The notes below the pieces were generated by a model, which saw only the letters and a program-made list of their open reading frames with translations, was not told the origin of the DNA and did not search any database. A stretch of DNA of 64,000 nt. Origin: Mesaphorura yosii (lineage: Eukaryota > Arthropoda > Collembola > Poduromorpha > Tullbergiidae). Shown piece by piece: positions 877 to 63,649 of the stretch (the first letter of the stretch is position 1; each line of letters starts with the position of its first letter). The stretch lies in NCBI GenBank assembly GCA_009869945.1, contig WIXG01000327.1, positions 24,161-88,160 on the forward strand, read 5' to 3'. Made by a program: the position numbers and the translations under genes.

Positions 877-2631
877 TCACGCACTGAATCCCACCACGTT
901 TGTGGACTTTGGTCCCAATTTCTTACACTCGGAGAGGAGCGCGTGAAGCAGGGCGGCCGATTGCTGGGCTGCCCGCATGGGCTCGGAAGATTTCTTGGCT
1001 GCCTTGCAGGATTTTGGAAAATCACAACCACTTTTATTCGAAACACAATTCGGAATACAGCAATCAAACACTCACCCTAACAGTATTATTACTGAAACTC
1101 CTCAGACTCCTACCCTTCGATACTCCCGATCTACAACAGAGCTTCTCCACAGCAACTAACCTAAACTGCTCGCTGTACCCACAGTAAATTAGGAAATTAA
1201 CACTTGAGTTGAAATTAATTAAAAAGCAGCGTGTAGACTCCAATACTGGACCGGAGCCGTTCCCAGTTTTTAATACGAACAGTCCTTCTAGTACTGCTAT
1301 GCTGTTGCAGAGAAGGTAGATGGTCACGAGGAGGGAGAGCATCCGGCCGAGTTGCGCCTGCTGCTGCTGGGGGTCGGTTGGGGGGTCATTGCCCATCTCT
1401 GCCCGGGTAGTGGTGGCCTCCTTCACCTATGAGTTTTTGGTGGTGGTGTCGTGAGCAAGTCGAGGGGTGCGAACCCACAAGGGGGATCGCACCTCTCGAC
1501 TCGCTCCGCGGTAGCGATGTGGCCCGCCGCTATTATAAACCGCCTGTGGCGGAGAAAACTACCGACGCTTGCGGGGGACTCGAGGCACTAGGTCTCCGTT
1601 ACGGAGCCCCAAAGTTGAAACACCCCGAAAAAAATCGCCAAACACCCGAAAACGGTAGAATTTTACAAATTATGAAAATTTCAAAGTCCCGGGAAACCCA
1701 AAATTTTTCAGCCCCAAAAAAACGCCAAACACCCGAAAAGAAGAAATGCGCCAATGCAAAAAGACAGAGTTCCCAAATTCGTGAAATTTTTCGAAGTTCC
1801 CGGAAACTTTTTTTAAAAATAAAAAATTTCAAAAAATCTCACCCCTCTATAAATGAGTAAATTCAGGACGACCATCGTACTCATCGGAATAAAATAAATA
1901 AACAAGAAGAACCCTTGTTGCACATACACCTTGTCAAACGCATAACTCCTCCTGAATCCCGTCGTCAGGGGCATGTACATCCAGTCTTCTGTCGAGTTGC
2001 TTCCGGTCGCCCAATCACTAACCTTCACTCCATTATAACTGTACTCGTTCCACCTTGGTCCATTATAAATAATAGACAATAACACAATCCAAAAACACAC
2101 CCACCTCGTCCTCCGCTTCGTGAAATAGGCCCTAGCCCTTATAGGGTGCGCCACTACCAAATACCTCTGCACTGTTATAGCAACAATTAAATAACTACTA
2201 ATACAATAGCTAGTCATCGCTAAGGGGAATACGAAGGGGACGCTCATGAAGCTGTAGAACTGTTTAAAGTCCACACCGCTATAGTTACAAAGTACTGGGA
2301 CTGCTATTAGAAACAACATGCTCAATACCAGTATGGTGTCTGACACTGCTAAACACTGTAGTAAATTATTAATCGAGTTGTGGAGCCTACTATTCCTTAA
2401 TACTGCTATAGTTAATGTATTTCCAATGAAACCAAATACAGTTGTCAAGACGATTCCTAACCCTGCAAGACTGAACTGGTATAACTCTTCGAATTTAGTG
2501 TTTGAACCCTGGTTTATAGTGTAGTGGTTATAAAATATGCTGTACTGCTTCTCTCTTAGTAATTCAGAGTGGGTGATGTTCTTGTAAATAGTGTAGTGTC
2601 CGGTTGTTATGGTTTGGAGGAGGTTTTCCAT
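877..2631 (-). CDS. FMRFamide-receptor-like rhodopsin-class GPCR
   Basis: Exons 2631-1843, 1426-1076 and 1002-877; the junctions are in phase 0 and the protein is about 421 aa. Exon 1 has an N-terminus with an N-glycosylation site (NIT), then TM1 (GFIGNTL), TM2 (LAVSDTILVLS), TM3 ending in QRYLVVAHPIRARAY, TM4 (WIVLLSIIYNGPRW) and TM5. The TM3-TM4 segment closely resembles Drosophila FMRFaR. Exon 2 carries TM6 and TM7; the usual NPxxY is replaced by NSSVNFLIY, as in other peptide receptors of this group. Exon 3 is a cytoplasmic tail. The ligand is inferred to be an FMRFamide-type peptide, with a Gq-coupled plasma-membrane role. I chose the Met at 2631; an in-frame Met at 2799 would add 56 residues. 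Intron 1 (1842-1427) holds a hairpin element; intron 2 is 73 nt. The last short exon is the least certain part. Confidence 0.82.
1445..1610 (+). repeat. Dispersed multi-hairpin element, copy A
   Basis: The copy lies in intron 1 of the GPCR, antisense to it. It starts with the family's GTCGTGAGC-AAGTCGAG head. Hairpin 1 pairs 1459-1472 with 1487-1500 (14 bp, one G-U pair). The core CTCGCTCCGCGGTAGCG follows, then the CCGCC-TGT-GGCGG hairpin and a GACGCTTGCG segment also seen in the 47-kb copy. Confidence 0.75.
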
Positions 2632-4743
2632 CTTGATTTTGTTGAGTGTGGAAATTGGTGGGGCTGGTAGAGTGTACAATTTCGAATTTGCACAGGAGTC
2701 TTTAAATTGCAGCTCCGGAGATGACGGAGATCGTGAGCTAAGAGGAAGAAATCCTCGAAGATGATGGTCGTAATAATGGAGAAACAGGTTTTTGATCATA
2801 TTTTTTCATCAGATTCATGAGTGTGAAAGACGTCATTTATGCGGATGAGCCGCTTTGTTCGCCAAAATCGCGAAAACTGCTTCATCACGACCCCATTGGA
2901 GGGCGCTGCGAAGAATACATTAAAATACGCTGCCGCTGCTGACCGAGTGAGACTCTGCGAATCATCCTCGTGGCGGACCTCCGATGGCATGTGGGATTCA
3001 GTGCGCAAAAAACACCAGCCATGGTCCATTCTCCAAACCGCGATCGTCCCCAACAAGAACGACGATTGGACTCCCAGCCCTCCAAGCCCATCTCGACAAT
3101 CTCTCATCTTTGCGAGCAACGCGCATTTTCCACGTTTGGATCGACTCGCTCCTCTAAAGAGTCCTGGCCAGAGGACGACGTGGCGGCCCTAGGCCCAGAC
3201 TCCCCCAGAATGATGGAGATGAGCCCTTGGACGAGGATCTTTTGGCGGCACGTCTGAAGAGCCAGCACTTCCGCACAAGTGCAAAAAACTGGCGACTGAC
3301 TAGCCCTGTCGCTTTTTTACATTGCACATGACTCATCTCGCCTTTCGCCATTTTTTTGCTCGATCTTTTTTTTGCCCTTTCTCTCTATCTCTGCACTCTA
3401 CCTGCCACATTTAAGATTTATTCGCTCTCCTGATTACGCAATGCCGTTGACCCCACGACACTCGACCCGAACTGCACATTTTAAACTTTTGCTACAGTTT
3501 CATCATCGTCGTCAACCGTCATTCGAACACCAGACTTTGATTGAGCCGTATTAGCGAGTCGTACTTTCGCGTGTAATTTGGGCAAGGTCGATTTGTGAAT
3601 TTCGCGATCATGACATACACGACTCGACTCGCCTCCGTGCCTTGCACGCACGGTGAAGGCCATCCTTATTTCGTTCCAAATTTACGCCGAGTCACGGCAC
3701 GCCAGCAAAACTCAAGTGAGCGAGCCGTGTAGAATTGGGGACAAAAGAGCTCGCGAAAATACGTGGCTCAACCCAAATTCAGTATTCACAGCTCGCAGCG
3801 TTTCCTTGAACGTGTGCGAATTTTATTTGTAAATAGTAAATACAGCGATGGAGGCAGCGTGATCGTGCAGAAAATCCACGCAATTGCAACAGTCAAGAGA
3901 CAAAAGAGCCCCACTTCCTTTTTAATTACCACAGCACCATTAATGAGCACCGCGCTAATTACTTGTAACTTGCTAATTTACTGCCAAGCACTCTGCAATT
4001 TTTGCTTTTAAATGGACGTTGGCAGCCCGCTGAGCCAACAGCAGCGGCGCTAATCGGCCAACGGCCATTATCAACGTCAAAAATGGATTATGACATTTTA
4101 GCGGCGGACATGCACAAACTTTTTTTTCTGCAACCGTCACGTTTCCCACATTTGACTTTGCTTTTCGCGTGCAGAGGCTGCAGACATGACGGATAAGATG
4201 TTGAGACAAGTCCACATTTTATATTATGCATGTTGCATTATAAAAAAAATAAAAATGAGTTTGGGAAAAAAACACTTCTCTTTTCAGAGCGATTGTGTTA
4301 TGTAAAGTGAAAGTAATTACTCGCGCTTGCCCCAGAGTCAAATTGCATTGCGCTCGCGCCGAGTTTCCCATGATTAAACCCACCAACAATAATGTAATGC
4401 AATTCAATGCAATCATACTGCTAAAATGCAGAGCACGATCAGAAAACTATAACACGACAACAAAGTTACGAGAGTAGGGGCAGAAAAAAATGGGAAACAA
4501 GACAAAATGTGCGTACAACATGTGCTTGGTCTGATGAAGAGAGACTGCTTACTCTTTACGAGAGTGCCCACGCTCGAGACGAAAAGAGGGCAAAAGACGC
4601 CAGAAAGCCAAGACAAAAAGAATCTCATTCATTCGCAAAGTCTCTCGTTTCCGATCAGTCATCTCAATAGTCTCGGTTGTGGTTTTCTAAGAGACGCTGC
4701 CGTCTCGAGAGTCTCGCCTTCAGAAATTCCTTCACTCTGTGCC
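2632..4743. other. Intergenic, no gene seen
   Basis: Several 60-117 codon frames overlap each other on both strands at 2800-3660. None has a domain, signal peptide or splice signals. The GPCR and the hemocyanin-type gene are divergent, so this 2.1 kb probably contains both promoters. I see no clear TATA box. Confidence 0.5.
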
Positions 4744-7922: not shown

Positions 7923-7966
7923 TTATCCGGCCATATTTTTCTTGCTGTTTGTACTGTTTTCTACGC

Positions 7967-7972
7967 AATAAA
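7967..7972 (+). terminator. Polyadenylation signal, hemocyanin-type gene
   Basis: AATAAA 45 nt after the stop codon. Confidence 0.7.
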
Positions 7973-9459: not shown

Positions 9460-9481
9460 CCAACGTTGTAGATAAGAGCTG

Positions 9482-16572: not shown

Positions 16573-16837
16573 ACTCACCCGGAAAATTCAAGGTCCTCCT
16601 CAAACCAAACACTCAAAACAGAACAAAACTCGCCAATGATCACAACTTTTCAAACTCTCAGAACCCCAGGAAAAATCCAAATCTCGAATGATCCCAAATC
16701 AAAGGAATTTGCTAATGATCAGAATTTCAAAGTCCGGGAAAGCATGAAAAGGCCCTCTGGACCGCATTCGTCGTCTAACACTCAAATTGTACACAGTTTT
16801 TTTTTTTTATAAAAAACACTCCAACACACTCGCATAA
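16573..16837. other. Intergenic
   Basis: Contains a poly-T run at about 16795-16808. Nothing else recognised. Confidence 0.45.
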
Positions 16838-16843
16838 TTTATT
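16838..16843 (-). terminator. Polyadenylation signal, Lys-rich gene
   Basis: AATAAA on the minus strand, 150 nt beyond the stop codon. Confidence 0.6.
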
Positions 16844-16992
16844 AAACCTCCAACAACAACAAAAACAAATCATAAGTTAGACATGGCGCAGATGACTGAA
16901 TGAGTAATCAGGGAGTCAAGATCATCGTCTCTCGATGGCGGGCCGAGCGGGGTGGAAAATCGGCCTGCTGGTGTAAAGTAGAGACTTTGGGT

Positions 16993-20492: not shown

Positions 20493-22502
20493 CGCCCGTG
20501 CACGAGCAGTAGTACAGTGGTTATTCTTAACCCTTAATTGGAAACGGATGAAGGACCTTAATTGAAAGTGCACACTGCCAGGCTCAAGGCTCACGACCGG
20601 AAAACAACCGAGAAGGCCAGCAGTCGATCATCAGCGGACAGGCTCACTGTACGGTGAAGCAATTACGGGTTATATTTAACCACCCCTCAAAGAGCTTGGC
20701 CTCCATTTGCACAAGGTCGAGGCGCAGGAAGACGGAGACTTACAGAAGTGCAGGAGACACTTTGACATTGCCATTGAGGAAATTGAGAATCTTTTTGTTT
20801 GTACACTGCTGGCTGATACTCGGAGGAGCCTCGAAAGTGAGCCGGGCTATTTTTAGTGTTCGGGCCCTTGGAAGAGTCTCTTGCTGACCTAGAGAGTAAA
20901 TATGATGGAGACTTTCCGCCGTGCACCACGCGATCTCTGTGCGGGATGAAGGGAGTGCTATTTTTAGCACGCTGGCCTTTTCTGAGACGGTAAGAAGTGC
21001 ACCACTCCGCAGGAGCTTCCTCTAGTGAGACTCGCTGGCAGACCCTTATCCATGATGCGAGTTCGAGCACAGAATTACTAACCAAGAATTCTCATTTAGT
21101 AATTCTGTAAGTTCGAGCGAATGAACCAATCAACTACATTTCTTTCGCTAAAACCACCACCAACGACTTTTATTTTCAAATACTCAAGTGTGTGTATCAA
21201 AAAAGAGGAACCAAGTGACAAGACAGTCCTGCATGTAAAAGTACCATACGCCTAGTAAATATTAAGTTAGTAAATTGTTTAGGAAACCGCTTCGCGCGCG
21301 CGAATTAGGAACTGCTCGTTTACGCATCAGAATTCAGTTGTGTGAAGGAACTGCTTAGAATTCTTAATTCTTAGGACAATTACTTGTTTGAGATTACTCC
21401 CTTTTTTTGTAGGAACCCACGATTGACCCTTAATTAGTGTTAATAAATACGAATTACGATTTACGAATTACAAGATTGCGATTTCTTGATGGAATGACGT
21501 CACCAAAGGAATTCTCACCAACCACCACCTCGATGATGTTGTTCGACTCCTTGGGGTTTGAGCACTGGGCGACGGTTGGTTGAGTGGTTTCTTTGGTGAG
21601 GGTTGTATGCTAATTTTAATTCATAAAAATGTCACTACACGTAATCCTAAATTCCTATCTTATTTTTTAAGAAGTCTTGGATGCGAGGTTGATGATTGCT
21701 CTTTGGGTAAAGCCAAAAGATTGGATTTTTTTGAGAAGCTCTGCTGCTGCCACTGCCCCCACTCAATCAAGGGGGATTATTGCGTAGAAAAATTTGTTTG
21801 CACTCCTCCGTGGAAATTCGACCCCCTCCGCCTGAAAAGGAAATTAAGTAGGCTACTCAGACTCGAATCTGAAAGTGATGGCCGGAATACAATTTGAAAA
21901 CAAAATTTAGCATGATAAAAAACGAGCGTTTTTATTTCAAACGAAAAAACAGTACAAACACATAACAAAAAAAAACATAAATAAATTTAAAAAATGGTGA
22001 TGCTAAAAAAAGAACCATACGAGCATGGGTTCGTGTGTTAGGAATCAGGGTACCGGACTTAAATCATAAAATTATAAACTAAAATGGTAATAATTAGAGA
22101 GAGCGTTATCACAACGACGACGACGGCGGTAAAATACCATAAAATCATAAATTAGTAAAAAAAAAATTAAAACAGAGAGAGGTTATACTTGTTAGAGAGA
22201 GAAGCTCAAATCCTTACCTCATTTCTTTTTAAATACGTGTACGCTAAGAGAGTTCCTTTCTACTAATTAAAAATTCCTAAGTAGAGTAGTTGCGAGGTTT
22301 TCTTTTGCTTGAATCTTGTGTTTTGGTCGTGGATGTAGAGTTTTTTTTCGCGGTGAGAATAGGGAGAGTCGCCCGACGCTTTCTCCTTCTGTACGGTCGC
22401 CGGGAAAATACTTTTCAAAAAATACTCGATAATCGGGAACACCCCTTTGGTAAAATTCGTGGTGTGCTCGTGTCATAGTCTTGGTAGCCTAGTCATAATC
22501 TT
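20493..22502. other. Intergenic and probable zfh2 3' UTR
   Basis: AT-rich from about 21.1 kb onward. Minus-strand AATAAA signals at 21931-21936 and 21169-21174 are candidate ends for zfh2, giving a 3' UTR of about 0.6 or 1.3 kb. No coding exon is supported. Confidence 0.5.
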
Positions 22503-30196: not shown

Positions 30197-30199
30197 CTC

Positions 30200-38050: not shown

Positions 38051-41000
38051 CTCACTCTCCGGGCGCGAGAATTAATGAGGAGCCCATGCAGATTGCAATC
38101 TTGTAATTACAGTCGCAATTACTCTCGGACTCCACTGGCACAACTACTAACGCATGCAAACCCCCGTAATTAAATCTGGTAATTGCAAGCAGTGCCCCCT
38201 CCGCTGTCTTTGCAAAAGTACTCTGCGGAGACGGCCGGAACGGAAACGGCGAGACATGATGCGGGGCAATGACTGAAGGCACGGGGATGCACAATCATTG
38301 AAGGCAAATCAAGGAAGGCAATCATTGCACAATCGGAAAATGTCGGGCAAACTGCGCACACCGAAAACTGAGCAGATGGAAGGCAACCGCCACTCATGGC
38401 GGTCTCAATTCGCGGAGCAGTTTGGGAGTCCGCGCTAATGGAGCACAAAAGAGCGATCGAGACACTGAGACTTGAGGTCTCAGTGTCTTGTATCACTTGA
38501 GACCGAGGTTGCTGAAAACCGGCCAGTGCTCAGCCCCCCGCCCGAAAACAATGAACGACTGAGGAAGCTCCGTTCCAAGCGTCTAAATCATAAACGTACC
38601 CCCGTCTGTCGAAAGCGGCGATTCGGTGGCGAGGTTTCCGTGAGTTTTTTTTTGAGAAAGCACTGCTCTTCTCCTAGAGCGTGAGCACTTTTGGCACGGG
38701 TCAAACACTGCGGTGAACTGCACGGTGGAGCCTTTCGGTAAAAGAGACTCTGGACACGTGACCACCGTCCGTCTCTGTTTACAAACACTGTTCAAAAGTC
38801 AAAGGAGTACAGCGGAGGTTGCTAGGGGGAAGCCGGTCTCAGTGGTCCGGTCAAGAGTCGGCGAGTCACTGCTGAGACCACGGAGCTGGACAGCCGAGAA
38901 CACGAGCAAGAGAAAAAAAAGCAGTATGCGGGTGGAATTAATTACTCCAAAACCCCCTCCACCACCAGAAATACAGCTCTTAAAATTAAACGCAAAGGGG
39001 ATCGGAATTAAAAAAAGGAGAGGAGCGTTAATTTATATTGCACTCCCTCCACCACTCTCTTCTCTTGGGGGAAACGTGCGGGGCAATTAACCAAGGAGAC
39101 TCTGTGCTCTCTTGAGTGAGAGACGATGTTGAAAAAACAAGCGTAGTCCCCCCGCACTTTTGCGCTTAAGCCTTGTGCTCTCTTGCTTCATTTTCGTGTG
39201 GAGGTGTTCTACACTCGGGAAATTAGAGCCCATAGTTAAAAAAAGAAGGTATGCACATCGGTCGTGTTTAATTAATGGAGAAAAAAGGAGAGGACGAGCA
39301 GTGTGCTCTGCTCTGAGCAGTGAGCATTAAACTCTCTTCTGCTTACACAGCGGAGATAAGATAAAAAACGATTGGTCGCTTTCGTCCGCTTTGCCTCCAC
39401 CTTTTTTCTCTACTCTGCATTGTCCTCATGTATTCCGCTCCAGGCCAGTGCTGCTCTTGTACGCTTCTTTCTTAATACAATTATCGCTAATGATAATTTT
39501 TTCTCTCCTGTGCCAGAGCAACAGCCACACTGCAGACGATTCTCCTTCGCTCATTACAATATTAGGGAAAAAAATGATGATTGTGTCTTGTATTTCGATG
39601 ATAATGATAATCACTCTGCGTTTATTTTGGATGGTTGTTCCTACGGAATTCCTTTCCCCCCACCGTCCGTGCTCACCTGGGCCACGTTTTGCAGTGCACT
39701 ATTCTCGCTGCTGTTAAAATTCCCAAACGCTCGAGCAGAGTCGTGATCTCGAAAACTCGCAACTAAAATGAAGTGTCTGATAGAGATTTGTGTTTGAGAT
39801 GACAAAGAAGTTGAGAGTGCAACGCACTCGATTTATAAAACTCAACGACAATTAACACGAGTGTGCATGCAAAGTTCTCCGATTGCGTTCGGTTGATGAG
39901 GAGTTGAACCCAGAAATCCTGTACACAGTCGGGCGCAATTAACAAAGTACATTAAAATTCTTATGTATGCAGAGTTTTATTTTGAGAGTGCGCACTTTGA
40001 CTGGATGAGTAGCGATGCTAATGGACGATAATATACAATTTCGTCAACGAACTTGGATCATTGCTTTTGCGGTTACAAAACCCATCGCCCTGGCAGCAGT
40101 AGCAGTCCGGACAAAACTGCAGACAATTGCGGCTTCAGAATGGCGGCTCGAACGGGGTCAGGGGAGGGCTTCCACCGAGGGCTCTTTTACCTTTGCCAGA
40201 ATTCAGAGAATCTCAAAAGTTTTATTAACACTCGACCCTCCGGGGCGAAATTCCATTGCTCAACGCTAATTTGCATATAATCATAGAGATCGATCGAGTA
40301 TGAACCAATAAATCACCGATACTCAAGACTTGTATAATTTCCCCATGCACGACTCTCGAATTGGATCGGAGCAGATTCTCTCACATCATCCACCGGTCTC
40401 CGCTCTCTTTACTACACTCCGTCCTCCGCTCCCCGACAAAGAGTGGATCGGTCGCCATCTGCCAACTTCTCTCGCTCTGATCTCTCGCTTTCTCTCCCTC
40501 GTATTTCATCCCGGCTCCATCCTCTATGAACAGCCAGCGCCACCTCCCGTGGCTCTTACTCGTTCAAAGGTTCTGTACGTGTGTGAAAAAAATGACTCGC
40601 AGTGTCTACAAAAACTCGCTCACACTCTCCTCCGACTCTGTTTTTTTGCAACCGAGCCAACTTGAACGAATTAGAGAGAAGCAATTAAAAAAACTCGGGC
40701 TAAAAATAGCCACAGCGCCCCCGAATTAATTAATCGCAAGCACTGAAGAGATAATTTCGTGCAGCAGCAACCATTCGTGGGGGTTTCACCGTGCGGAGTT
40801 TCGGAGATTTTGGAGTGTTGGAGCAGCAGTGCTCTCGGGAATTGCACACCTTGCGAATTACGAATCGGCCGATGTGGCAGTTTCTTGCATGTATGCTGCG
40901 GAAATCGGCTCAGCAGTTTCAGCTGGAGATGAAAAGTCACTTTGCCCGTCGTTGCTCTCGCATGTCGGGAGTGTCCGATGGGAGCCAAGAGGATTTTACG

Positions 41001-45982: not shown

Positions 45983-48900
45983 ATGGCGGATGGAGGCGCC
46001 GCAGCAGCAGCGGAGGACGACGGAGGGCTCGACGAGCTGTTTGTCACAACCACGGCGGCGCCAGTGCCGTCCGCTTCACAGGCGCAGCAATACCAGGTTC
46101 AATAGCAAGATCCTAAACTGGCGCCACGCCAACAAGCACTAAACCATTGCTCTCTTTATCATTCCCAGTACCCTCACCCCTCCCCCTTCACCATCCTCCG
46201 CTGCAAGCAGACACACAATCGAGTAATATTGAATGTTGGGGGTGTGAAGCACGAAGTACTTTGGACAACTCTGGATAGGCTGCCCCATACAAGGCTGGGA
46301 CAACTGCACTACGAGTGCGGAACGCACGAACAACTTCTAGAAATCTGCGATGACTACTCGATAATGGAGAACGAGTACTTTTTCGATAGACACCCAAAGT
46401 CTTTTTCCAGTATTCTTAATTTCTACCGGACGGGGAAGTTGCATCTTGTGGACGAGATGTGCGTGTTGGCGTTCAGTGAGGATTTGCAGTACTGGTGAGT
46501 TTATTGGGAGGGACGCCCGTAGGTTACTGACCCTTCATGGACTCTCTAATGGACTCTGGAATCCGTACTTTTCCTGAGAGACTTGGAGCACATTGTGACT
46601 CCGGGACGAATGACTCTGGAGAAGTGCTGAAGCATTTCGATAAAGACCCTGGACACGCGTCCGGAACATTTTTTCGGTGTGGAGCACTCTGGAGGGACTC
46701 TCCCCGACTTTGAAAAAGCGTTCGGACGACTCTCTGACAGTGGGACCAAATCCTGACCCCGTCTAAATTAAATGTCGGCGTGACGGAAGGACGATACTAA
46801 TAGGACGGCCCCGACATTTCTCCAGAGGAGAGACTCCCGAATTTGAGGAGTGTACGGGAGTGACCTTCCTCACTTTCTCTGACTGCAAACGACTTGGAGA
46901 CGGCTGGAACGAGAGTGGCCTCGAGAACAAACTCGAAAGGAGTTGGCCGTACCCTGCAACCAAACTGAGACTCTGACTTTTTGACCATTTAGACTCGCGT
47001 GAACTGGACTGATGTGGCCCTGACAACGTCCATCTCCAGCTCGATAATAACCAAAGAATCTCTCTTCTCCGGTAGCAAAGTAGCCTCTTAGCAAGTAGTG
47101 TCTTCTTTGCAGGGGCATCGACGAACTCTATTTGGAAACCTGCTGCCAGCACAAGTACCACCAGCGGAAAGAGCACGTCTGGGAGGAGATGCGGAAGGAG
47201 GCGGAGTCTTTAAAGCAGAATGAGGAGGACGAGATGTTTGGGGATGGAAGGATAGAAAAATGGAAAAAGTACATTTGGGATTTGCTAGAGAAGCCTACCA
47301 GTTCGTTTCCGGCGAGGGTAAGAAGATATGAAGGGGGAGGACAAGTCGAGCGGCAGAGGCCGCTCGAATCCTTCACTCCGCGGTAACGCCGCCTTTGGCG
47401 GTAAGACACTACCGGCGCTTGCGCCGGACCATACCGTTACACGCGAGGGTAAGGCAAAGTCGCCCTCTGTCTGATAGTGTCTCCCAACGAATTTGTGGGT
47501 GAGGCGCGGAGGGAGGCGACCGACAACCGAGTCCTCAACAGACGTGTGATTTAATAGGATTTGGAGGGGAAAAACCGCCAAATTTCAGATCAGGGTTGCG
47601 CCCGAACCTTGTCGAAAGACCTAGAAAAAATAACCCCCTGCCAAAATTCAAATTTCAGAAACAAAACAAAATGTCCCAAAACACAATTTTTTTCAAAGTC
47701 CCGCCAAACAGCCCAAATCGGAAACTTCCAACCAGAATTTCCCATAACCGCGACAAAATTTTCAAAGTCGTAAAAAAAATCGCCGCCAATTTTCAAAATT
47801 CCAATTTTTCCTCCTCGCAGGTCGTCGCCGTCATCTCCATCTTCTTTATCGTCCTCTCTACTATCGCCCTTACTTTGAACACAATGCCCGGTTACCAAGA
47901 CTGCTCCGAGCCCAACACTACAATCTGCCTGATGCACCCAAATCGAGGGTGGCGGATCCCCGAGAACGAGTCAGCTAATATAACTAATTTACAAGATGAA
48001 CTCTGGGTTGAGAACAAGTACTTAGCTCTCGTTGAGGAGGTCTGCATCACGTGGTTCACACTCGAGTACGTTTTGAGGTTATTAGCCAGTCCGGACAAGT
48101 GCAAGTTCCTTCAGGGAGGGCTGAATAACATTGATTTACTCGCTATCCTACCTTACTTTGTGAGTCTGTTCTTGAGTCAGACGAAGAAGCATACCGGGGG
48201 AGCGTCTGAGCATATAGCGGATGTGCGGAGGATTATTCAGGTGAGACAATTTTTAAAAAAATTCAAATCTCCCGGGAAACAACGAGAGGAAACTAAAAAA
48301 TTCTTTCAAAGAAAATGCCCTTCAAGAATAGCGCAATTTAAAATAAAAATTCCAAAAAAGAATTCCGCAATTTAAAAAATTTGGGAAAAAACCTCCCCGC
48401 CGAAAAGCCCACCATCTGGCATGGAAACGTAACTCCAAAATAATACTCCACAGGTCTTCCGTATAATGCGAATCCTTCGTGTCTTCAAACTTGCAAGGCA
48501 CTCCACCGGTCTCCAATCATTAGGATTCACGTTACGAAACAGCTACAAAGAACTCGGATTGCTAATGTTGTTTCTCGCGATGGGAGTGTTAATCTTCAGC
48601 TCGCTCGCATTCTTCGCCGAGCGGGAAACGAATGCAGATTTCAGCTCCATCCCGAGCACATTCTGGTGGGCGGTGATTACCATGACGACAGTGGGGTACG
48701 GGGATGTGTTTCCGGTTACTCTCGTTGGGAAGATGATTGGTGAGGCCCCAGACTCGATTCGAGATTTGAATTTGAATTTATCCCGCCAATTCCTTGTTGT
48801 CTAGGTTCCCTCTGCTGCGTCTGTGGCGTCCTCGTCGTTGCCCTCCCCATCCCCATCATCGTGAACAATTTCGCAGAGTTCTACAAGAACCAGATGAGGA

Positions 48901-50590
48901 GGGAAAAAGCTTTGAAGAGGAGGGAAGCGTTAGAAAGAGCAAAGAGAGAGGGGAGTATTGTTAGTTTTGGCGGGGATGTGCCCTCAGCGGCAGGTGCTGG
49001 TGGGGGGGATAAGAATAAATCTTTGAGGGACGCCTTTGCGAAATCGATGGATATTATCGATGTGATTGTCGATACGGGTGAGTTTTTCTTTCACAGTGCC
49101 AGGGCGAGCCTTTTCCAGAATTTGTAAAAATCAGCGGAAGAATCCTTTTTTTCAAAGTCGCCATTCTTTTTCAAAGTCGCGAGCGATTTTTTTTTAAACT
49201 CCTACAAAAATATCGAGATTCTTAAAAGAACCGGGAAATTGTTTCCCCAGGCCACAACATGTCGGACGCCAACTCGCTCCGCGGTGGAGATGAAGGAGGA
49301 GAAGATTCACGGCCCAAATCCACCTCAACAGGAACGGGTTGCTACCGCAACTACGACAGCGGAAAGTCGAAGCAATACTTACAGATAGAAGGGGTTCTGG
49401 AGGCGGTGGATGGGAGTTTGAAGGTAATATAAAAAATTGTCAAGGTTGCCATTGCGGAGATTTTCGAAAAATTCGAGTTTCCTAATCATTCTCGTATCTT
49501 GTAGGAGGCACCCTCTTCCCGTTCCCACCAGCAAAAACCTCCCACATATAACGACTATGACAACGACTGCTGTTTCTGCTCATCGGCCGCCCCGTGGCCT
49601 GATTATAACCACAAACGTGAACCGGATTTCCACGGGAGCGTCGAGTCATCAGATACTTACGTCAGCTGTCAGTTGTTTAATTCGGAGGAGTTGCTCGAGT
49701 GGCAGAGGAGCCCCGCAAAAGAGGCTCCTGCAGGTGTCAGGAAATCGACGAGTATTGAGGAGGGGTTGAGGGCGGTGGAGAGCCCTAAATTAGGATCAAC
49801 AAAGATGGGTGCGGGTGGATTATTAAAGAGGGCCAGGTTTGGCGGTGGAGGGGGGCAGGTGAGTTCTAAATTCTGAGTACAAAAAAAGGATATTTAAACA
49901 AAAAAAAAGGATCTTTAAAAATGTGTTTTCCCCGTAGAAACCCTCCGCCGCAGCCTCCTCCCAGCGGGGCTCCAGTATAGAGTCCATCCCGATGAGGAGG
50001 CAGCAGTACAACTCTGTGAAAGAAAAGTCAAAGGCTTCCATCCTCAAGAAATTCGACCCGGAGCAGGAGAGGTTGCTGGTGGGAAGTCCTCCTGCAGGGG
50101 GTGCAGGGGCGGTTGCGTGTAATCGGGGTGAGTTTGACACATGAAGGAGGCCGGGGTCTCATGGTCCTTTTCCAAGGGCTTTTCCAAGACCTCAAGGCAG
50201 GGATTGGGATGTTTCCATGGGGTCTTATTCTCCAATTTCTTTCGTCGGGTTTGCGTAGTCTGCAGGTTACGAGGCTTTCCCAATGGGGGCCTTATCCTCG
50301 AGATTTTCTCGAGCAAAGTTTTCGTATGGAATGATTTCTCTGGAGAGTTGCAAGTTTTTCTCAAATTCCCTATTCTCAAAATTTGGACCCTCAAAGAGAA
50401 GTTTTTGTGGGTGGGAGAGCCCTAAAAAGTACTAACAACCCAAATTTAATTTTCAGACCACCTCCACCACCCCGGCGCCCACCACCATCACCATCCGCAC
50501 TCCGGCAGCACTGGGGCGTACTCCTCAGACAGCTCCTCCGTGTCGCAGTCCTCAAGCTCCACTTTAAAGCCGGCCGGGTCGACGAGTTGA
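45983..50590 (+). CDS. Shab: Voltage-gated K+ channel, Kv2/Shab
   Basis: Ten exons: 45983-46096, 46169-46494, 47113-47317, 47821-48240, 48454-48739, 48805-49077, 49251-49423, 49505-49858, 49938-50127, 50457-50590; about 824 aa. The T1 tetramerisation domain ([15 protein letters not shown] to [12 protein letters not shown]) spans about residues 57-160. S1 starts at [14 protein letters not shown], with an S1-S2 loop carrying two N-glycosylation sites. S4 is [19 protein letters not shown]. The pore holds TTVGYGD and S6 ends [13 protein letters not shown]. The cytoplasmic start matches Shab ([48 protein letters not shown]), and a [19 protein letters not shown] block lies further on. It conducts delayed-rectifier current in neurons and muscle. 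Exon 1 uses a weak donor (GTTCAA) and is less certain. AATAAA at 50916-50921. Confidence 0.93.
46495..47112 (+). other. Shab intron 2
   Basis: This 618-nt intron has repeated GGACTCT/ACTCTGGA-like motifs in its first half. No exon or known repeat is recognised. Confidence 0.5.
47343..47560 (+). repeat. Dispersed multi-hairpin element, copy C (long form)
   Basis: In Shab intron 3. Hairpin 1 arms are CGAGCGGC (47347-47354) and GCCGCTCG (47359-47366), with a 4-nt loop. The core CGAATCCTTCACTCCGCGG follows, then CCGCC-TTT-GGCGG, then CCGGCGC-TT-GCGCCGG. The tail GAATTTGTGGGTGAGGCGCGGAG to CAACAGACGTGTGATTTA matches copy B. Confidence 0.78.
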
Positions 50591-54300: not shown

Positions 54301-57300
54301 TTTTTATTTATTACGGGGCGCGGCTGGAAGGGGGTTTTCGAGGTATTCTCTCAGGCAGGCCTCTGTAAAATGGTTTTTTCACCATTTTAACAGCGGTTTT
54401 TCTGAATTGGACGGCCACCACCCGTTACTTGCCTGAGAAAGCCTCCCAGGGCCTCCCAAGCGCCCAAACCCACCCAGCTACCGTAACCTAACCTCACCTA
54501 TCTGTCAATTATCTTCTAGGATGTGCGTCCTCGGCCAACGCCTCCTTCTGCAAGTCGCAAACTGCACGAAAGAACCACGTGGAGAGTTATGGAGGGAGTT
54601 CTGCACCGGAGACGAGATTCACACGTGCGACCCGTACTTTCAGGCTAACGATCCGTCTGTCGTCAAAGGAATAAAAGGGATTAGCTCGGGGGTGCTTTAC
54701 GAGAATTTGCTGCCAAGCTTCAGATCGAAAGGGGACTTGCTGACGGGGCCGGATGAGGAGGAGAATTCGAATGAGGACGGGCAGACGTACAATCAGGTTG
54801 TGATTGACATTACAACGAGTTTTACGATTCTGGTGGGGATCTTCTTTCCAAGTGTGACGGGTGAGTGGGGGCGGTTTTTTGTGGTTTCTTTTTACTTTTT
54901 TTTTGGGGGGGGGCGACTTTGTTTAAGTTTGTTAGGTCAGGTTTTTTTGAGCTTGAACTATTTTTAGGGCCCAGTTTTTTCTTGGACTTTTTGGGAACCG
55001 AGGCCTGATTGACCTTCTTTTTCTTAGCCAGAGGTCCAACTCTTTTTTTTGCGAAGGCCCGACTTTTTCCTTTGATGAGGGGGGGGTTCAGGGGTTTGCC
55101 CCCCGAGTCAAGAAGGAACAATCACTCGACCGTCCGAATTTCTTTTTAAGGGTCAACTGGTTTTTCTCCTGTTTTTCAAGATTATTTTTTTAACTCAGCG
55201 CCAATTTTTTTTACAATTTTTCCGTCTTCTTTTCTAATATTTCCGCCAACCTCTTTTCTAAAACACAGGAATCATGGCCGGCTCGAACCGCTCAGGGGAC
55301 CTCGCCGACGCCCAGAAATCCATTCCGATCGGGACGATTGGCGCGATTTTGACGACTTCCACTGTGTATCTGTCGAGTGTCGTTCTGTTTGGGGGGACTG
55401 TCGATAATTATCTACTGAGGGATAAGTAAGTGGTGGTCCCAGTGGCCGGTTTTTCTTGTTTGTCTTCAGTTTCGCCTATTTTTTTTTCATTTTCGACCAG
55501 TTCTTCCCACTCCCGCCCATTTTTTCCACCATCTTTGATCATCATTCTGACCGTTTTCTTTCCCCACAAATCGCAGGTTCGGCCAGTCAATCGGAGGCCG
55601 CCTCGTCGTCGCGAACATTGCGTGGCCCAACGAGTGGGTCATTCTAATAGGCTCCTTTCTATCAACAATCGGGGCAGGGCTGCAGTCACTGACGGGGGCT
55701 CCGCGATTACTGCAAGCCATTGCCAGGGACAACATCATCCCTTTCTTGCAGCCATTTCAAGTCTCGAGCGCAAAGGGCGAGCCGACGAGGGCGTTGCTGC
55801 TGACGCTGTGTGAGTGGATATCTCTGGTGGCGTCGTCCCACTTTGGGGGTCCTCGAGGCGCTCGAATCCTTCGCTTCGCGGTAGCGGGCCGCCCCCTGCT
55901 TTATTAGGGGGATTTAGACCCCTCCCCCGCGGGTTACGGAATGTGGGCGGCGGGACACGTCGCTACCGCGGAGCGAAAGGTTTCGAGCCCCACAGCCCTT
56001 GGCGACGTGGGCTCTGGTGCTCGACTCGCTCACGACGCCCCCTTTATAAACTTGACAGGCATCTGCGAGTGCGGAGTCCTTCTCGGAAACGTCGACTACC
56101 TGGCCCCCCTCCTCTCCATGTTCTTTCTGATGTGCTATGGGTTCGTGAACCTCGCCTGCGCCCTCCAAACACTGTTAAAGACGCCAAATTGGAGACCCCG
56201 CTTCCGGTTCTACCACTGGATCGGGTCGAGCATCGGACTGGGGCTCTGTGTTACAGTAATGTTCATGACGAGCTGGTACTACGCTTTATTGGCAATGGGC
56301 ATAGCGGGGGTGATTTACAAGTACATCGAGTACAGGGGGTGAGTCGAGTTTTTTTCCCGTCCTTTTTGTCTGGTGTTCGGCATGTGGGTGGGGTGGGTTT
56401 GGATCGTTGCGATGGAAAGAACGGAGTGAAGTTTAATTTTTTTGTCAGAAACGAAATTGCGGATTCCAAATTTTACCATGGAAAAAGTCGTTTTCTTCAT
56501 TATCTTTACGCCGTTGTCATGGAAATGAGTTACCGAATTTACCCGTTTTCATAGAAGCATCTGTCGCCTGGCCGAAATGCACAATAAACGCTGTCATCGG
56601 CAAAACCCCCCTTTAAAGCATGAAGACATAATAAAATCCCCCTTTATATTACCTACAGCGCCGAAAAGGAGTGGGGCGACGGAATCACAGGGCTCGCCCT
56701 CTCCGCCGCCCGCTACGCCCTCCTCCGCCTCGCCGAGTCCCCCCAGCACACGAAAAACTGGCGCCCACAAATCCTAATTCTCTCAAAACCAAACATGGAA
56801 GGACAGCCGTCGGAAAAGAAGCTCTTCACTTTCGCTGGGCAGTTAAAAGCTGGGAAAGGCCTAACGATGGCGGGTGCGGTGCTGGAAGGAAGCTGGAACA
56901 GAGAAGCGGGCAGGGCGGGGGCTGTGAAGCGAGTGCTTGGGAGGGTGTTGGAGGAGGAGAAGATTAAGGGGTTCGGGGAGTGTATTGTGGCGCCGGAGGT
57001 GGAGGTCGGGGTGGCATGTTTGTAAGTCGGCCTTAATTTAGTATGGAAGTTTTTTTTTCAAAATTGACTTTAACTTAAACTTATCTTAAATAACTTAGCT
57101 TGACTTAACCTTAACTTAACTTCAAAATTCACCTTAACCAAACTATACTCAACTTAACTTAACCTCAACTTAAACCTTAGCCAACTGTGAATCTTCCCCT
57201 TCTCGTAGAATCCAATCAGCAGGACTCGGAGGTCTCAAGCCAAACACCGTGCTAATAGGCTGGCCGAATTCGTGGAGGGAGAAGGGCACCTCCCCAACGT

Positions 57301-58935
57301 TCCTCCATTTTCTCCGCTCAATCGTGACGGCAAAAATGGCGCTGCTCGTGCCGAAGGGGCTCGTCTTCTACCCAGACTCGGGGGACCGGGTCGCGGGCTA
57401 CATTGATGTGTGGTGAGTGGGGGGATTTTTTTGAGGGGGCGAGGCGGTTCCACAGCAACGATGGGTGGGTCGTCCACGAGCGGATTTGATGACGGGCCTT
57501 TTTTTACCAGAGTTTGATTTTTTTTTTACAAGTTGGGAACTTTGAAATTCTGATCATTGAGAATTCCTCGCTATCTTCTCTACAGGTGGATCGTCCACGA
57601 TGGAGGCCTCCTGATGCTCCTCCCCTTCCTACTGAAACAACACCGCACCTGGAAATCCTGCAAGATGAGGATTTTTACTGTAGCGCAATTGGAGGACAAC
57701 TCGATACAGATGAAGAAGGACTTGAGGGCGTTTTTGTACGCGCTGAGGATCGATGCAGAGGTGGAGATTGTAGAGATGGTGAGACTATCTTGGATTCTAA
57801 ATCCCCCTATTTATGAACCGCTCTAGTAAAGGTTTATCCTTAAAAACCCCTTTAGGAATCCCCTCTTCTAAAATCCTCTCATTGAAAGCCCCCCTTAAGT
57901 CCCCCTCTAAACCCCCTTTTTAACTTTCTACAGCCCACCTCCGACATCACAGCCTACACGTACGAGCGAACGCTGTTAATGGAGCAGCGCTCTATGATAA
58001 TGAAGGAGCTCAACCTAACAAAAAAACGTCGGATGAGCCTCGTCGATGAAGTCGTCGCACCGAGCGTCGTCCCTCCCCCTGCAGGGTCGAGCTTGGATGG
58101 GGACATTGAGGACGATGAGCTCGAGTTGGAGATGGAGACTGGGGGTGGGGTGGAGAGGCAGCTGGGGAAGGTGGGTGATTTTTTAAGGCTGAGGCAATGG
58201 GGCGACGGTTTTCATGGTTGGCATGGAAACCGGGGTTTTAACGCTCTTTGAGGGTTTATAACCCTTGGGAATTTTAATGTTCGGTTGTCATGGCAGGTCC
58301 ACTTTGAAGAGAACGAGAAGCAAATGTTAGAAGCGGACCTTTCTGAGAACACCGGAAGCCAGCGAACCCCCGAGAAGAAGATGGAGGACGAGATGCGGGA
58401 GGCGATCGCAGCGGGGGAGAAGCAGAGGCCGTGAGTAGTCTTACATATTAATTATGGCCAGTTGCCATGGAGAGTAAACACATATCCCCCAATATTCTTG
58501 CGTATAGCGATGAGGACAACGTCCGCCGGATGCACACGGCCGTGAAGCTCAATGAAGTGATTCAAGCCAAGTCAGCGGACGCTAAACTTGTCATCATCAA
58601 CCTACCGGCGCCTCCGAGGGGGGAGCGGAAGGGGGAGTCGAACTGTAAGTACTTTTTTTTACAATTTTTAGCTGTGCCTTGAGAGCAAGTTTATTTTTCG
58701 TACAGAAAATTGCATACTATTGTTCAACTGATTAAATTACATACGAAGATTACAAAACACTGAAATTCAGCGAAATACCCCAATTTTTAGTGGGTTGTTG
58801 CCATGGTAACGCGTTTGCTAATCGTGGTTAATTTTCCTTGCAGACCTCGAATTCCTCGAAGTCCTCACCGAGGGCCTGGACCGGGTCCTGCTTGTCAGGG
58901 GGAGTGGGCGGGAGGTGATCACCATCTACTCATAA
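51399..58935 (+). CDS. kcc: K-Cl cotransporter (SLC12A4-7 family)
   Basis: First exon 51399-51753, then 52955-53267, 53524-53779, 54057-54289, 54520-54860, 55269-55425, 55577-55809, 56059-56338, 56659-57021, 57209-57412, 57586-57778, 57934-58170, 58297-58430, 58508-58644, 58844-58935; about 1175 aa, or about 1090 from the alternative first exon. Twelve-TM cation-chloride core: [17 protein letters not shown] in TM1, [41 protein letters not shown]. The large extracellular loop in exon 5 keeps four cysteines and an NCT glycosylation site. Cytoplasmic half: [41 protein letters not shown], and the C-terminal EVITIYS. Both WNK/SPAK-regulated threonines of vertebrate KCCs are present ([12 protein letters not shown] and [12 protein letters not shown]). 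It exports K+ and Cl- from cells and sets neuronal chloride. AATAAA at 59267-59272. Confidence 0.93.
51754..52746 (+). other. KCC intron between alternative first exons
   Basis: About 1 kb from the donor of exon 1a to exon 1b. It holds GTTGCCATGG at 52126-52135 and a poly-T run near 52544. It probably contains the promoter for the 1b form. No other exon was recognised. Confidence 0.5.
52747..52846 (+). CDS. kcc: KCC alternative first exon (1b)
   Basis: ATG at 52747, 33 codons plus one base, ending TCAG|GTAAAA. The phase is 1, identical to exon 1a (which ends AAGG|GTGAGT at 51753), so either exon splices in frame to 52955 and creates an Asp codon at the junction. The peptide is Ser/Gly-rich and ends EDKS. 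It would replace the longer acidic N-terminus of form 1a. Confidence 0.65.
54349..54438. repeat. Nested inverted repeat in KCC intron
   Basis: Outer arms TCTCAGGCA (54349-54357) and TGCCTGAGA (54430-54438). Inner arms AAAATGG (54367-54373) and CCATTTT (54382-54388). Not homologous to the multi-hairpin family. Confidence 0.6.
55827..55925 (+). repeat. Dispersed multi-hairpin element, copy D
   Basis: In the KCC intron 55810-56058. Has the GGCGTCGT head and the core CGAATCCTTCGCTTCGCGG, followed by a TAGCGG stem. Its hairpin 1 is poorly formed. It is arranged tail-to-tail with copy E. Confidence 0.7.
55926..56039 (-). repeat. Dispersed multi-hairpin element, copy E
   Basis: Same intron as copy D, opposite orientation. 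On the minus strand: GGCGTCGTGAGCGAGTCGAG head, hairpin 1 with arms around GAGCCCAC and GTGGGGCTC, then the core CGCTCCGCGGTAGCG. The two copies fill most of the 249-nt intron and make it a large imperfect palindrome. Confidence 0.75.
58797..58810. promoter_or_regulatory. X-box-like palindrome (RFX-type site)
   Basis: GTTGCCATGGTAAC, matching the RFX X-box consensus GTNRCC(N)RGYAAC, in the last KCC intron. It is one of many related sites between 45 and 63 kb. Confidence 0.45.
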
Positions 58936-59556: not shown

Positions 59557-61402
59557 CTAACTGCCACCACTCTGCTCCTGATTGTGGTTGTTGCATTGCT
59601 GCTGCTCCTCGTTGCCATGACCACTGCCCACTGCTGTTGAAGAGGCCTGACTGCTATTAAGAGCAGCCGCACTCGCCGCTTTTAACTCTCGATTAAAAGG
59701 GTGATTCGAGTTTCGCAGCACGGAGTAGACGTTCGGGACGGAGGCCAGCCGCTGGAAGAAGGGGATCAGGTAGAGGAGTTCTGTGTCAGAGGCGTCGTCG
59801 AACCACGAGCAGACTGGGACGGCGTTGTCCTGTGGAGGGATTAGAGGGGGGTTTTAGGGTTTTTTTCTTATTGGGGATTTGGGTTTGGGTGTTTGGAGAA
59901 TTTTTTGTTCGGGACTGTTTTACCGCCGAAGGCGGTCTTTATTAGCGGCGGGGCACGCCGCTACCGCGGAGCGAAGGATTAGAGCGCCCCAGGACCACCC
60001 TTGGGGTGGTCCTCGATTCGTTCACGACACCACCCCCGCTATCTTCTTACCGGGTGGAAGATGTAACTCGCCGGAGAGTTATCCACAATCACGACCCTTC
60101 CCAAATCCCTCCCCAACCTCGCCAAATCCTTCACGTAATTCCCCCGATGGAAGACGCACGACTCCCTGAAGAGACGGGATTTGAAGACGCCCCAGTGGTC
60201 GAGGAGGTCCGCGACGGGGTCGGCATACTTTGCGAGAGAGGCTGTACGGGAGAATAAGAGGGTTGTTTTTCATTAGACAATTTTTTGAGGGGGATCAAAC
60301 ATGTTGTGGGAAGCATTTTTCATTCTCAAACACTTGACTGATCGAGGTTTGCCAGTTGCCAAGGTTTCGGTTAAAATCCGGTTGCTGGGTTTAAGTGGGG
60401 GTTCCCAAAATGGTATGAGGTCCTTTTCCAAGGCCGCGGCTAACTTTCTGCTTTCTCTCATCAAACGGGTAACATCCTCAAAGCCCCCCTTAAAATGACC
60501 CACTTCCTATGGCAACGGCCCAAACCATCCAAAACCTTGGTTTTGTGCCTCAAAACCTTAAAAACTTTTTCAATGAAATAAAGTGTGGTGTTGTCGTTAA
60601 AAAAAAACTTAGAGAACACTCGGTCTCCACGGCAATAGCCTCCGGAACGACGTTCTCATTCAAAATCACGTTTAGACGTTCTGAAAAAGCCTCAACTGAC
60701 CGACTCCCATGGCAACAGCCCTCAAAATCCAGTGGAATTTACACCCAACCCCGATCCCATGGCAACCACCCATGAACCCCCCACAATTCCCCGGTTCACA
60801 TGGCAACAAACAACCACTCACGCAAAATCCGCCTCTAAAAAACCTAACTCACCCGTAAACAGCACACACTCGTACAACTCCCCCATCTTCTCCAGAAATT
60901 CATCAACATACGGTCTCTTAGCAACGTAGACCTGGTGCACCTGCCCATCAATCTCTACCGGGACGATGAAATCCGCATGGGGGATTGGCTTGAAACTCGA
61001 GTGGACGAGTGTTTCATCCAAGTCTATTACTAGGCAGATTGATGTGTCTGTACTTGGTTCTAGTAGGTATTGCCCTGGTGGTGGTGGGGAGGGGGACTTT
61101 TCTATAGCTTCTTGTAGGTCTTCTAGACTCGATCTGTCTACTTGGGGGGACGGGGGACGGCGGTAACAACACGAGCAGAGCCTCTTCCATGACGATTTCC
61201 AGGAGGAACGGCGGGGGCGTTTTTCTGAGTTGGAGGGAGAGCTGCTCGCTGGCGTTACTACAAAGATGAGAATTGCAATTTAATCGAAGGGGGTGCTGTT
61301 TAGCAATATTAGGAGCTTACCCTGCTGCTCCGCAGCCACCGCCGCCGAGTAGTCCCCTCCGGTGCCTGTGGGCCTCTCCACCTGTGTGATGACGTCGTCC
61401 AT
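59557..61402 (-). CDS. CTD small phosphatase (SCP/CTDSP family)
   Basis: Exons 61402-61321, 61257-60853, 60241-60051 and 59829-59557; phases agree; about 316 aa. The N-terminus starts MDDVITQVE, as in vertebrate CTDSP1 (VITQ). A basic, Cys-containing patch ([10 protein letters not shown]) resembles the family's palmitoylated membrane-targeting site. The HAD-type phosphatase domain has catalytic DLDET (Asp106, Asp108), then [59 protein letters not shown], and [17 protein letters not shown]. The family dephosphorylates Ser5 of the RNA polymerase II CTD and helps silence neuronal genes with REST-type repressors. After the domain a tail of about 50 residues is Ala/Ser then Gln/Asn-rich, longer than in vertebrate members. 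Intron 3 carries a hairpin element; intron 2 has several CCATGGCAAC sites. Confidence 0.92.
59921..60033 (-). repeat. Dispersed multi-hairpin element, copy F
   Basis: In phosphatase intron 60050-59830, same strand as the gene. In plus coordinates hairpin 1 arms are AGGACCACCC (59991-60000) and GGGTGGTCCT (60004-60013), 10 perfect pairs with a 3-nt loop. The core lies at 59962-59983, a TAGCGGCG/CGCCGCTA stem at 59943-59963, and CCGCC-GAA-GGCGG at 59923-59935. Confidence 0.8.
60242..60852 (-). other. CTD phosphatase intron 2
   Basis: This 611-nt intron has ATGGCAAC at about 60508, 60710, 60759 and 60800, a degenerate CACGGCAAT at about 60633, and GTTGCCAAGG at about 60353. No exon recognised. 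Confidence 0.5.
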
Positions 61403-62671: not shown

Positions 62672-63161
62672 GAGGAGCTGGCTGCCATGGCAACGCACGC
62701 GGGATCTCAAAACTCCTTTTCCCTCTGCAAAACTCAACCCTTCTAGAGAAGTAATCGCAGGTCCGAGAGTGGAACACCTTACACTATTTATTTAGTACAT
62801 TTTAAATTGAGGAAGAGGAGGAACATGTTTTGGTCGATTCTTGTACAGTAGTAATTGTATGTCTTTTATACGTTTGAGAGAGGTGTCTTTTTATGATGAG
62901 TTGAGGTTGTAGCATTTTAGTACCATGTATGATTGTATACGATCGAGTCCGATTTAGATTAAAAGTACAGTTACATTCGAAGAGGAGGGAGTAGGGAAAC
63001 TCGACTGGAATGCGTTAAATATTTGCGGGGGGATCCTAACAGCTAACATATTTGAGATATGGCGAAATCACAAGAGGGAGAGAATCTACTTATAAAGGGG
63101 GGAAATTGAGGGATGGTAATCTCCAGCTTTTCATCTGCAGCAAAACGTTGCCATCTCAACT
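62672..63161. other. Convergent 3' UTR region
   Basis: CCATGGCAAC at 62684-62693 just after the stop codon of the unnamed gene. A minus-strand AATAAA at 62787-62792 could serve the PDCD6 gene. No further coding exon. Confidence 0.5.
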
Positions 63162-63484
63162 TTAAATCTTCAACCCCATCACCATCTGCAGAAACTGCTC
63201 GTAGTGGATTGTTATCACTCCATCCTGGTCCGTGTCGTACTGGCGGAAGGCGGAGGTGAGGGTCTGCGGGGGGATTTTTTTAAAATTAATAAATGGGAGA
63301 TCCCTCTCTTATAAAACTTGAAAACTCACGTGAAGGACGACACAGCACTGGATGAAATCATCGAAAGCGACTGTTCCTCTCCCCAATCGGTCGAATTTCT
63401 TCAATAACATGCCCACCGTTGTCGGGGAGACGCGATAGCCGAAAGAAGTTAACGCTGTTTGGAGTTCCGAGTGGTCGATGGAGC
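63162..63484 (-). CDS. PDCD6: PDCD6/ALG-2 penta-EF-hand protein, 3' end (partial)
   Basis: Last two exons, 63484-63330 and 63263-63162, joined in phase 0 over a 66-nt intron; 84 residues plus the stop. They read SIDHSELQTALTSFGYRVS, KKFDRLGRGTVAFDDFIQCC, then FRQYDTDQDGVITIHYEQFL and MGLKI. This matches the last three EF-hands of PDCD6, including FDRxGRGxxAFDDFIQ and RxYDTDQDGxI. EF5 mediates dimerisation in this family. PDCD6 is a calcium-dependent adaptor that binds ALIX, TSG101 and Sec31 in ESCRT and ER-exit-site functions. The first exons lie beyond the right edge; the intron visible here holds a hairpin element. Confidence 0.88.
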
Positions 63485-63530
63485 CTGTGGGTTGAGAATT
63501 TAGGATGGGATGTATGTACAGTATGGGATG

Positions 63531-63649
63531 TCCGCCACGGGCGGTCTATAATAGCGGCGGGCGACGCCGCTACTGCGGAGCGAAGGATTCGAGCGGTCGA
63601 GGACCCCCCGGCAGGTGGGACCTCGACCGCTTGACTCGTTCACGACGCC
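63531..63649 (-). repeat. Dispersed multi-hairpin element, copy G
   Basis: In a PDCD6 intron, same strand as the gene. In plus coordinates hairpin 1 arms are GCGGTCGAGG (63593-63602) and CCTCGACCGC (63621-63630), 10 perfect pairs. The core is at 63573-63592, a TAGCGGCG/CGCCGCTA stem at 63552-63572, and CCGCC-ACG-GGCGG at 63532-63544. Confidence 0.8.

Follow-up and report, generated by a model that had tools for sequence, protein, structure and literature searches.

We analysed a stretch of 64,000 nucleotides (the window) from the springtail Mesaphorura yosii (GenBank assembly GCA_009869945.1, contig WIXG01000327.1, positions 24,161 to 88,160 of the forward strand), which holds several spliced genes and, dispersed among them, a family of repeats built around hairpins. 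Positions below are those of the window. The window is animal nuclear DNA, with hemocyanin/phenoloxidase-type, homeobox/zinc-finger, ion-channel, seven-transmembrane (7TM)-receptor and NIF-phosphatase domains in spliced reading frames; some of the gene names used here (Kv2-like, cotransporter-like, PDCD6- or penta-EF-hand-like and CTDSP-like) are in part ones that we take to be appropriate. Copies of the repeat lie in introns of five genes, with one end at a nearly constant distance from a splice site and an A/C-rich tail on the strand of the element, and their first stem has arms that differ from copy to copy and pair within each. An initial annotation of the window, made from its letters, had recognised the paired change of the stem and had missed both the position at intron edges and the tail. 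Several copies appear to fill their introns from end to end, which raises the possibility that introns here were created or taken over by mobile elements.

Results

A dispersed family of hairpin-bearing repeats

Seven copies had been proposed, here called C1 to C7 in their order along the window, and all seven are real: each could be read at its place, and a profile built from the seven recovered every one (E 6e-15 to 9e-36, as expected of a profile built from the same copies). The shared blocks are 72–93% identical in pairwise self-comparison. C1 to C4 lie on the forward strand and C5 to C7 on the reverse. In the sense of the element, the order is head, first stem (stem 1), core, middle hairpin, a third hairpin of the form CCGCC-NNN-GGCGG and sometimes one more hairpin; C2 and C3 also have a 3' module in common (80% identity over 76 nt in self-comparison). 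Individual copies depart from the uniform layout first described. The head is shortened in C3, cut after GGCGTCGT in C4 and absent from C2; the core is altered in C1, where ACT replaces AATCCTT; and the CCGCC-NNN-GGCGG hairpin occurs in only five of the seven, although its five 3-nt loops do all differ, as had been claimed.

The hairpin domain of C1 spans 1445–1610 (forward), with stem arms at 1453–1472 and 1487–1506. C2 (16360–16572, forward) has lost its head and kept the core, the hairpins and the 3' module. The hairpin domain and 3' module of C3 occupy 47339–47560 (forward; arms 47346–47354 and 47359–47367). C4 (55829–55925, forward), with its truncated head and missing 5' stem arm, is directly followed by its inverted partner C5 (55926–56039, reverse). 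The hairpin domain of C6 lies at 59922–60031 (reverse; arms 59991–60000 and 60004–60013), and C7 (63531–63649, reverse; arms 63592–63602 and 63621–63631) has a full head, the stem and two later hairpins. A head fragment at 27432–27456 (forward) is a possible eighth copy, C8, and is weak by sequence alone: blastn gave E 0.09–0.14, and the profile placed it as the best site beyond the seven at E 0.75. We accepted C8 because of its position and its tail, and it is therefore not independent evidence for position.

The core contains TCGAATCC, which we take to be like a tRNA B box, and an origin as a tRNA-derived short interspersed element (SINE) had been offered as one option. We rejected this origin, which we regard as very improbable, since no tRNA-like 5' region was found in the stretches searched. 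ARAGORN predicted no tRNA, and no Rfam tRNA family matched either the window at curated cut-offs or C1 and C4–C7 at permissive limits (C2 and C3 lay outside the permissive search). Moreover, the B-box-like bases are lost in C1, and the spacing from A to B box in C3, counted by eye, is about 20 nt. The permissive search over C1 returned a mir-1304 match far under its cut-off (24 versus 90 bits, E 0.022). At curated cut-offs the sole Rfam match in the whole window, outside the repeats, was K_chan_RES, a potassium channel RNA editing signal, at 48691–48869 (59.8 bits) within the K+ channel gene.

Beyond the window, the core pattern had no matches in viral contigs and one in genome contigs, with about two expected by chance on a hand estimate from the size of the collection. 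The one match is in a bacterial contig (L001, 7608–7626), which carries the exact 19-nt core pattern together with other core-like stretches (best blastn E 9e-6); we took this to be coincidence.

The arms of stem 1 differ between copies and pair within them

The initial annotation held that stem 1 keeps pairing although its arms differ in each copy. Six of the seven copies do form the stem in cis; C4, lacking its 5' arm, forms none. For the six stem-bearing copies (C4 left out) each 5' arm was combined with each 3' arm, and the true assignment ranked first among the 720 permutations both by energy (total -153.9 versus a mean of -99.2) and by Watson-Crick runs (49 versus 32.0). With C2 removed as well it ranked first of 120 on both measures. 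The paired change is thus real, and it concerns arms that have little in common: in 30 comparisons, arm likeness between copies was mostly no higher than in shuffled letters, the most significant pairs being the 3' arms of C6 and C7 (0.01 of shuffles as high) and of C3 and C6 (0.04). Folding was stronger than in mononucleotide shuffles for C1 (z -6.1), C7 (-4.1), C3 (-3.7), C5 (-2.6) and C6 (-2.3), mildly so for C2 (-1.4), and not for C4 (+0.5). The window holds four G+C-rich perfect inverted repeats (arms of at least 9 bp, loops of 3–25 nt), three of which are stem 1 of C3, C6 and C7; five shuffled windows hold 1, 0, 0, 0 and 0.

Outside the family, perfect inverted repeats lie at 21069–21108 and 38460–38488, with arms of 13 and 12 bp. 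A repeat search of the window found no inverted repeats of at least 24 within 300 nt.

Two sources of such paired change had been named at the outset, selection on the structure and a process that rewrites both arms together; these are still the right alternatives, and some sequence detail favours rewriting. Selection on an RNA or DNA hairpin in active source copies, with compensation proceeding stepwise, would fit either of the element readings weighed below, and we consider it quite possible though short of probable. The third hairpin behaves in keeping with it, retaining an invariant CCGCC/GGCGG stem around five different loops in five copies, and sponge mitochondrial hairpin elements (RHEs) likewise keep their stems and vary their loops (PMC2800124). 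In addition, the loops look saturated, so that arguments from rate leave room for stepwise change and the divergence of the arms by itself is compatible with it. Less readily accommodated by such selection is that the arms differ by blocks and in length, not by single pairs, and that, across six copies (C3 left out), the middle and CCGCC-NNN-GGCGG hairpins showed no covariation beyond controls, with 71 of 500 shuffles reaching the score and a version slid by +3 outscoring the true one.

Three details of the arms, picked out post hoc, look like local reverse-complement copying. With AATCCTT of its core turned into ACT, C1 has a 3' arm that ends in CTCGACTCGCTC, where the other six copies have CTCGAATCCTTCGCTC or close to it. 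This ending complements exactly the unmutated head GAGCGAGTCGAG as found in C5. No single contiguous deletion yields it; to restore pairing in this way, C1 would have had to undergo two deletions or more, or else a single template switch. In C4 an inverted 9-mer, CTTTATTAG, stands where C6 has the reverse complement CTAATAAAG. Finally, the 5' arm of C2, GAGCGCCTCGAG, is the exact complement of the 3' arm of C4, CTCGAGGCGCTC, as if an ancestral middle stem had left one half in each. The first two details also speak against stepwise selection. A stem can be created or mended by a single template-switching event, which in rare cases inverts a loop, and the distinction from stepwise compensation is described as less clear for short stems (PMC8794818).

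Copies in modelled introns lie at a nearly constant distance from splice sites

We modelled 22 introns in the window, of which five hold the element and 17 do not. Where splice choices competed the best-scoring one was taken; NK8 was left out of the 22 as unsure, and Kv5, NK9 (for which NK9b was used), NK12, HC1, HC2, HC4 and HC4b remained candidate introns without a model. The five element-bearing introns lie in five unrelated genes and are divergent, and one of them is counted through the weak fragment C8. An intron of 416 nt in a 7TM-receptor gene (1427–1842, reverse strand) holds C1 antisense to the gene; the frame continues from NLLIYRG to VKEATTTRAE, and the upstream exon encodes a 7tm_1 domain. 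C8 lies antisense in an intron of 205 nt in a zfh-type homeobox gene (27416–27620, reverse), with frame continuity from GAVLQHG to RSPKHSQLE. The intron of a voltage-gated K+ channel gene that holds C3 in the sense orientation is 503 nt long (47318–47820, forward; frame continuity from SSFPAR to VVAVIS, Ion_trans domain). A frame-continuous intron of 249 nt in a cation-chloride cotransporter-like gene (55810–56058, forward) consists almost entirely of C4 and the inverted C5. C6 lies sense in an intron of 221 nt in a CTD-phosphatase-like gene (59830–60050, reverse), where the frame continues and an NIF domain lies upstream.

In all five introns a head lies 16–21 nt from a splice site, which is the donor when the copy is sense to the gene (C6, 19 nt; C4, 19 nt; C3, with its shortened head, 21 nt) and the acceptor when it is antisense (C5, 19 nt; C1, 18 nt; C8, 16 nt). 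Under random placement within introns, a head at 21 nt or less, a limit chosen after the data had been seen, is expected in at least four of five introns with P ~5e-4 (excluding C8 and scoring C7 as a miss) and in at least five of six with P ~7e-5 when C8 is included. All three sense donors (C3, C4 and C6) have GATA at +8 to +11, a motif that the remaining 19 donors all lack within their first 20 nt; it was noticed first and counted afterwards. Inverted terminal heads occur only in the C4/C5 pair, at both ends of its intron, where the sequence beyond the heads amounts to just 19 + 19 nt, little for a pre-existing intron.

Two further explanations bear on these positions. The hairpins might be host structures for splicing or RNA processing that are kept in introns and are no part of a mobile element, as the near-constant distance from splice sites and the stable folding of most copies would allow. 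We think this improbable, given that the element occurs in both orientations and once as an inverted pair (C4/C5), that C2 with its tail lies outside the gene models, and that 17 of the 22 modelled introns do without it. Alternatively, an ordinary non-autonomous transposable element (similar to a miniature inverted-repeat transposable element, MITE, or to a Helentron) may have inserted into introns already present and into intergenic DNA, and a bias in targeting or survival would then leave it beside splice sites; on this view it makes no introns. DINE-1 is a hairpin-bearing precedent with hundreds of insertions in introns (PMC2374699). Ordinary insertion does not by itself lead one to expect that, in five introns 205–503 nt long, a head stands 16–21 nt from the appropriate splice site, or that the repeats leave no more than 19 + 19 nt of an intron uncovered.

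Two acceptors of element-free introns in the cotransporter-like gene, at 56636–56658 (CCCCCTTTATA...ACAG) and 57910–57933 (CCCCCTTTTTAAC...ACAG), resemble the acceptor beside C5 at 56037–56058; the likeness may reflect a common style of acceptor or former ends of the element. The donors of C3 and C6 have GTAAGAAGATA in common. As proof of a donor carried by the element this was set aside as a hint only, the test of outer ends having given no general support.

An A/C-rich tail follows the hairpins

The sequence after the hairpins, read in the sense of the element, is A/C-rich in C1, C2, C3, C6, C7 and C8 (A+C 0.61–0.84), in genes on either strand. The other 17 modelled introns have A+C of 0.33–0.66 in gene sense; since ordinary introns here are T/G-rich, the composition of the tails of C1 and C8, both antisense, is not distinctive by itself. 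A motif picked after the tails had been seen, AATTTTCAAAGTC, has 19 near-matches (up to 2 mismatches) in the window and 0–4 in each of ten shuffled windows. The tails of C1, C2, C3 and C8 account for eight of the 19, each on the strand of the element, although the six tails together span no more than 1,073 nt.

On the forward strand, the tail of C1 (1611–1842) has one such motif, at 1676; that of C2, motifs at 16645 and 16722 (16573–16850, a stretch set by hand, as its end is undefined); that of C8 (27457–27620), motifs at 27527 and 27568; and that of C3 (47561–47820), motifs at 47688, 47757 and 47788. On the reverse strand, the 92-nt tail of C6 (59830–59921) has an A content of 0.46 and a C content of 0.38. 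C7 ends 46 nt ahead of an acceptor, and its short tail (63485–63530, reverse) runs up to that acceptor, which belongs to a penta-EF-hand-like exon starting at 63484. Since C2 has a tail outside any gene model, the tail is apparently part of the element, and in C1, C3, C6 and C8 the element appears to span its intron from splice site to splice site.

A 41-nt tandem array of 2.5 copies at 27494–27595 is part of the C8 tail in the zfh intron. Two tail motifs, at 49147 and 49166, lie in a hairpin-free intron of the K+ channel gene (49078–49250), possibly a remnant of an element without its head. Of the places that match the C1 core briefly, 49272–49292 lies inside an apparent coding exon.

Discussion

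We tentatively prefer, at somewhat under even confidence, an introner-like, non-autonomous element that stretches between the two splice sites, the arms of its stem being rewritten in concert, possibly through template switching. The element is short and, being non-coding, presumably non-autonomous. It combines a head with a variable stem, a core and between one and three G+C-rich hairpins, and ends in a tail rich in A and C. Its copies lie in genes either way round, the head end near one splice site and the tail running to the other, so that the intron would in effect be the element. Its own ends might supply the donor or the acceptor, and it may have created or replaced these introns. The two arms would be rewritten at once by template switching at the palindrome, not by compensation selected step by step. 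In its fullest form the proposal is of an animal introner family that makes introns in both orientations, each terminus serving as a donor in one orientation and as an acceptor in the other, with the arms of the subterminal hairpin rewritten as a unit during copying or repair and every new intron thereby given a private paired stem; we consider this unlikely.

Ordinary insertion biased in position comes close behind the introner reading, against which a number of results weigh. C2 is in no gene model (it lies about 700 nt upstream of a promoter-like, ATG-like start, the ATG being at 15643), and no known donor is near C7, whose upstream (5') exon lies beyond the window. The outer 14 nt are not significantly alike either among the six intron ends (their score is reached by 255 of 3000 random sets) or among the three sense donors (by 237 of 969). 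In a crude test for target duplication at six places (C1, C2, C3, C4/C5, C6 and C7; C8 excluded), an imperfect repeat of 14/18 nt flanks C3, with 0.048 of random pairs as high, a marginal value that is the best of the six and uncorrected; the other five places were negative (C7 0.11, the rest 0.54–0.99, likewise uncorrected). If real, the duplication around C3 lies inside the intron and so argues for insertion into an existing intron. We also take it that this K+ channel intron may be ancient. The tails bring further difficulties. The motif is missing from those of C6 and C7 and so occurs in four of six; similarity between tails is modest (z 0.6–5.5 over 10 pairs in element sense, better than reversed in 8 of 10); some element-free introns rival it (C3 with NK4, 6.8; in reverse, C2 with NK9, 6.3, and C3 with NK2, 6.2); the element-free K+ channel intron Kv4 has two tail motifs; and the element-free intron Kv2 is as A-rich as the tails. 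C8 is outscored in blastn by matches to the C1 core at 32444–32469 and 49272–49292 (E 0.009 each). Lastly, paired arms could likewise result from selection acting step by step on a master copy. Because of these results on ends, tails, duplication, C8 and the channel intron, we keep the introner reading as a cautious first choice and biased ordinary insertion as a serious possibility that we would not call probable.

Introners are a leading candidate for bursts of intron gain, and a divergent animal family working in both orientations, if true, would widen the range of introners in animals. Private paired stems, if true, would be a natural data set on compensatory change, in which one-step template switching could be set against stepwise selection.

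Comparison with known systems

The initial annotation knew of no described family with a variable paired stem. That statement does not hold in this form, DINE-1, the sponge hairpin elements and the Amoebophrya introners being precedents. This particular repeat is described in none of the titles and abstract openings that we found, which cannot prove that no description exists.

Introners (Gozashti et al. 2022, PMC9860276) are likewise repeats that fill introns; they may carry or co-opt either splice site, some families have inverted ends, the authors' search allows insertion in the opposite orientation, and the animal hosts include copepods. Among animals and land plants one large survey found introners in only two groups, both animals. 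Target-site duplications and/or terminal inverted repeats occur in only part of the families. The present case differs in comprising five introns only, with duplication at best marginal, low similarity of the outer ends, highly diverged copies and a hairpin domain with variable paired arms. The introners of Amoebophrya (PMC7789003) have complementary repeats at the intron ends that fold and that differ in sequence over hundreds of families; they belong to a dinoflagellate, are found chiefly among non-canonical introns, and pair the two ends of the intron with each other; stem 1 of the present element, by contrast, folds locally close to one end.

DINE-1 of Drosophila, of Helentron type (PMC2374699), similarly has no significant open reading frame, many insertions in introns and a stem-loop whose stem differs yet pairs, in which its authors see compensatory change; a 5' repeat with a partly complementary second repeat and a central repeat unit are further similarities. 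Its stem differs among species, whereas here the difference is among copies of one genome; its subterminal inverted repeats and TT insertion site fall outside this comparison. The sponge RHEs (PMC2800124) are also dispersed hairpins with kept stems and varying loops, and two types are set apart by few complementary substitutions; they differ in being mitochondrial and intergenic and in having a conserved stem in each type. Template-switch mutations at RNA hairpins (PMC8794818) are similar in that a single event can produce or mend the two arms, and loops are rarely inverted; they have been reported in genes for rRNA and microRNA rather than in a mobile element. A variable paired stem therefore has precedents, and each part of the present case has its counterpart in introners, DINE-1 or the sponge RHEs; what appears to be new is the combination, within one genome, of a paired variable stem, a position at the edge of introns and insertion in both orientations.

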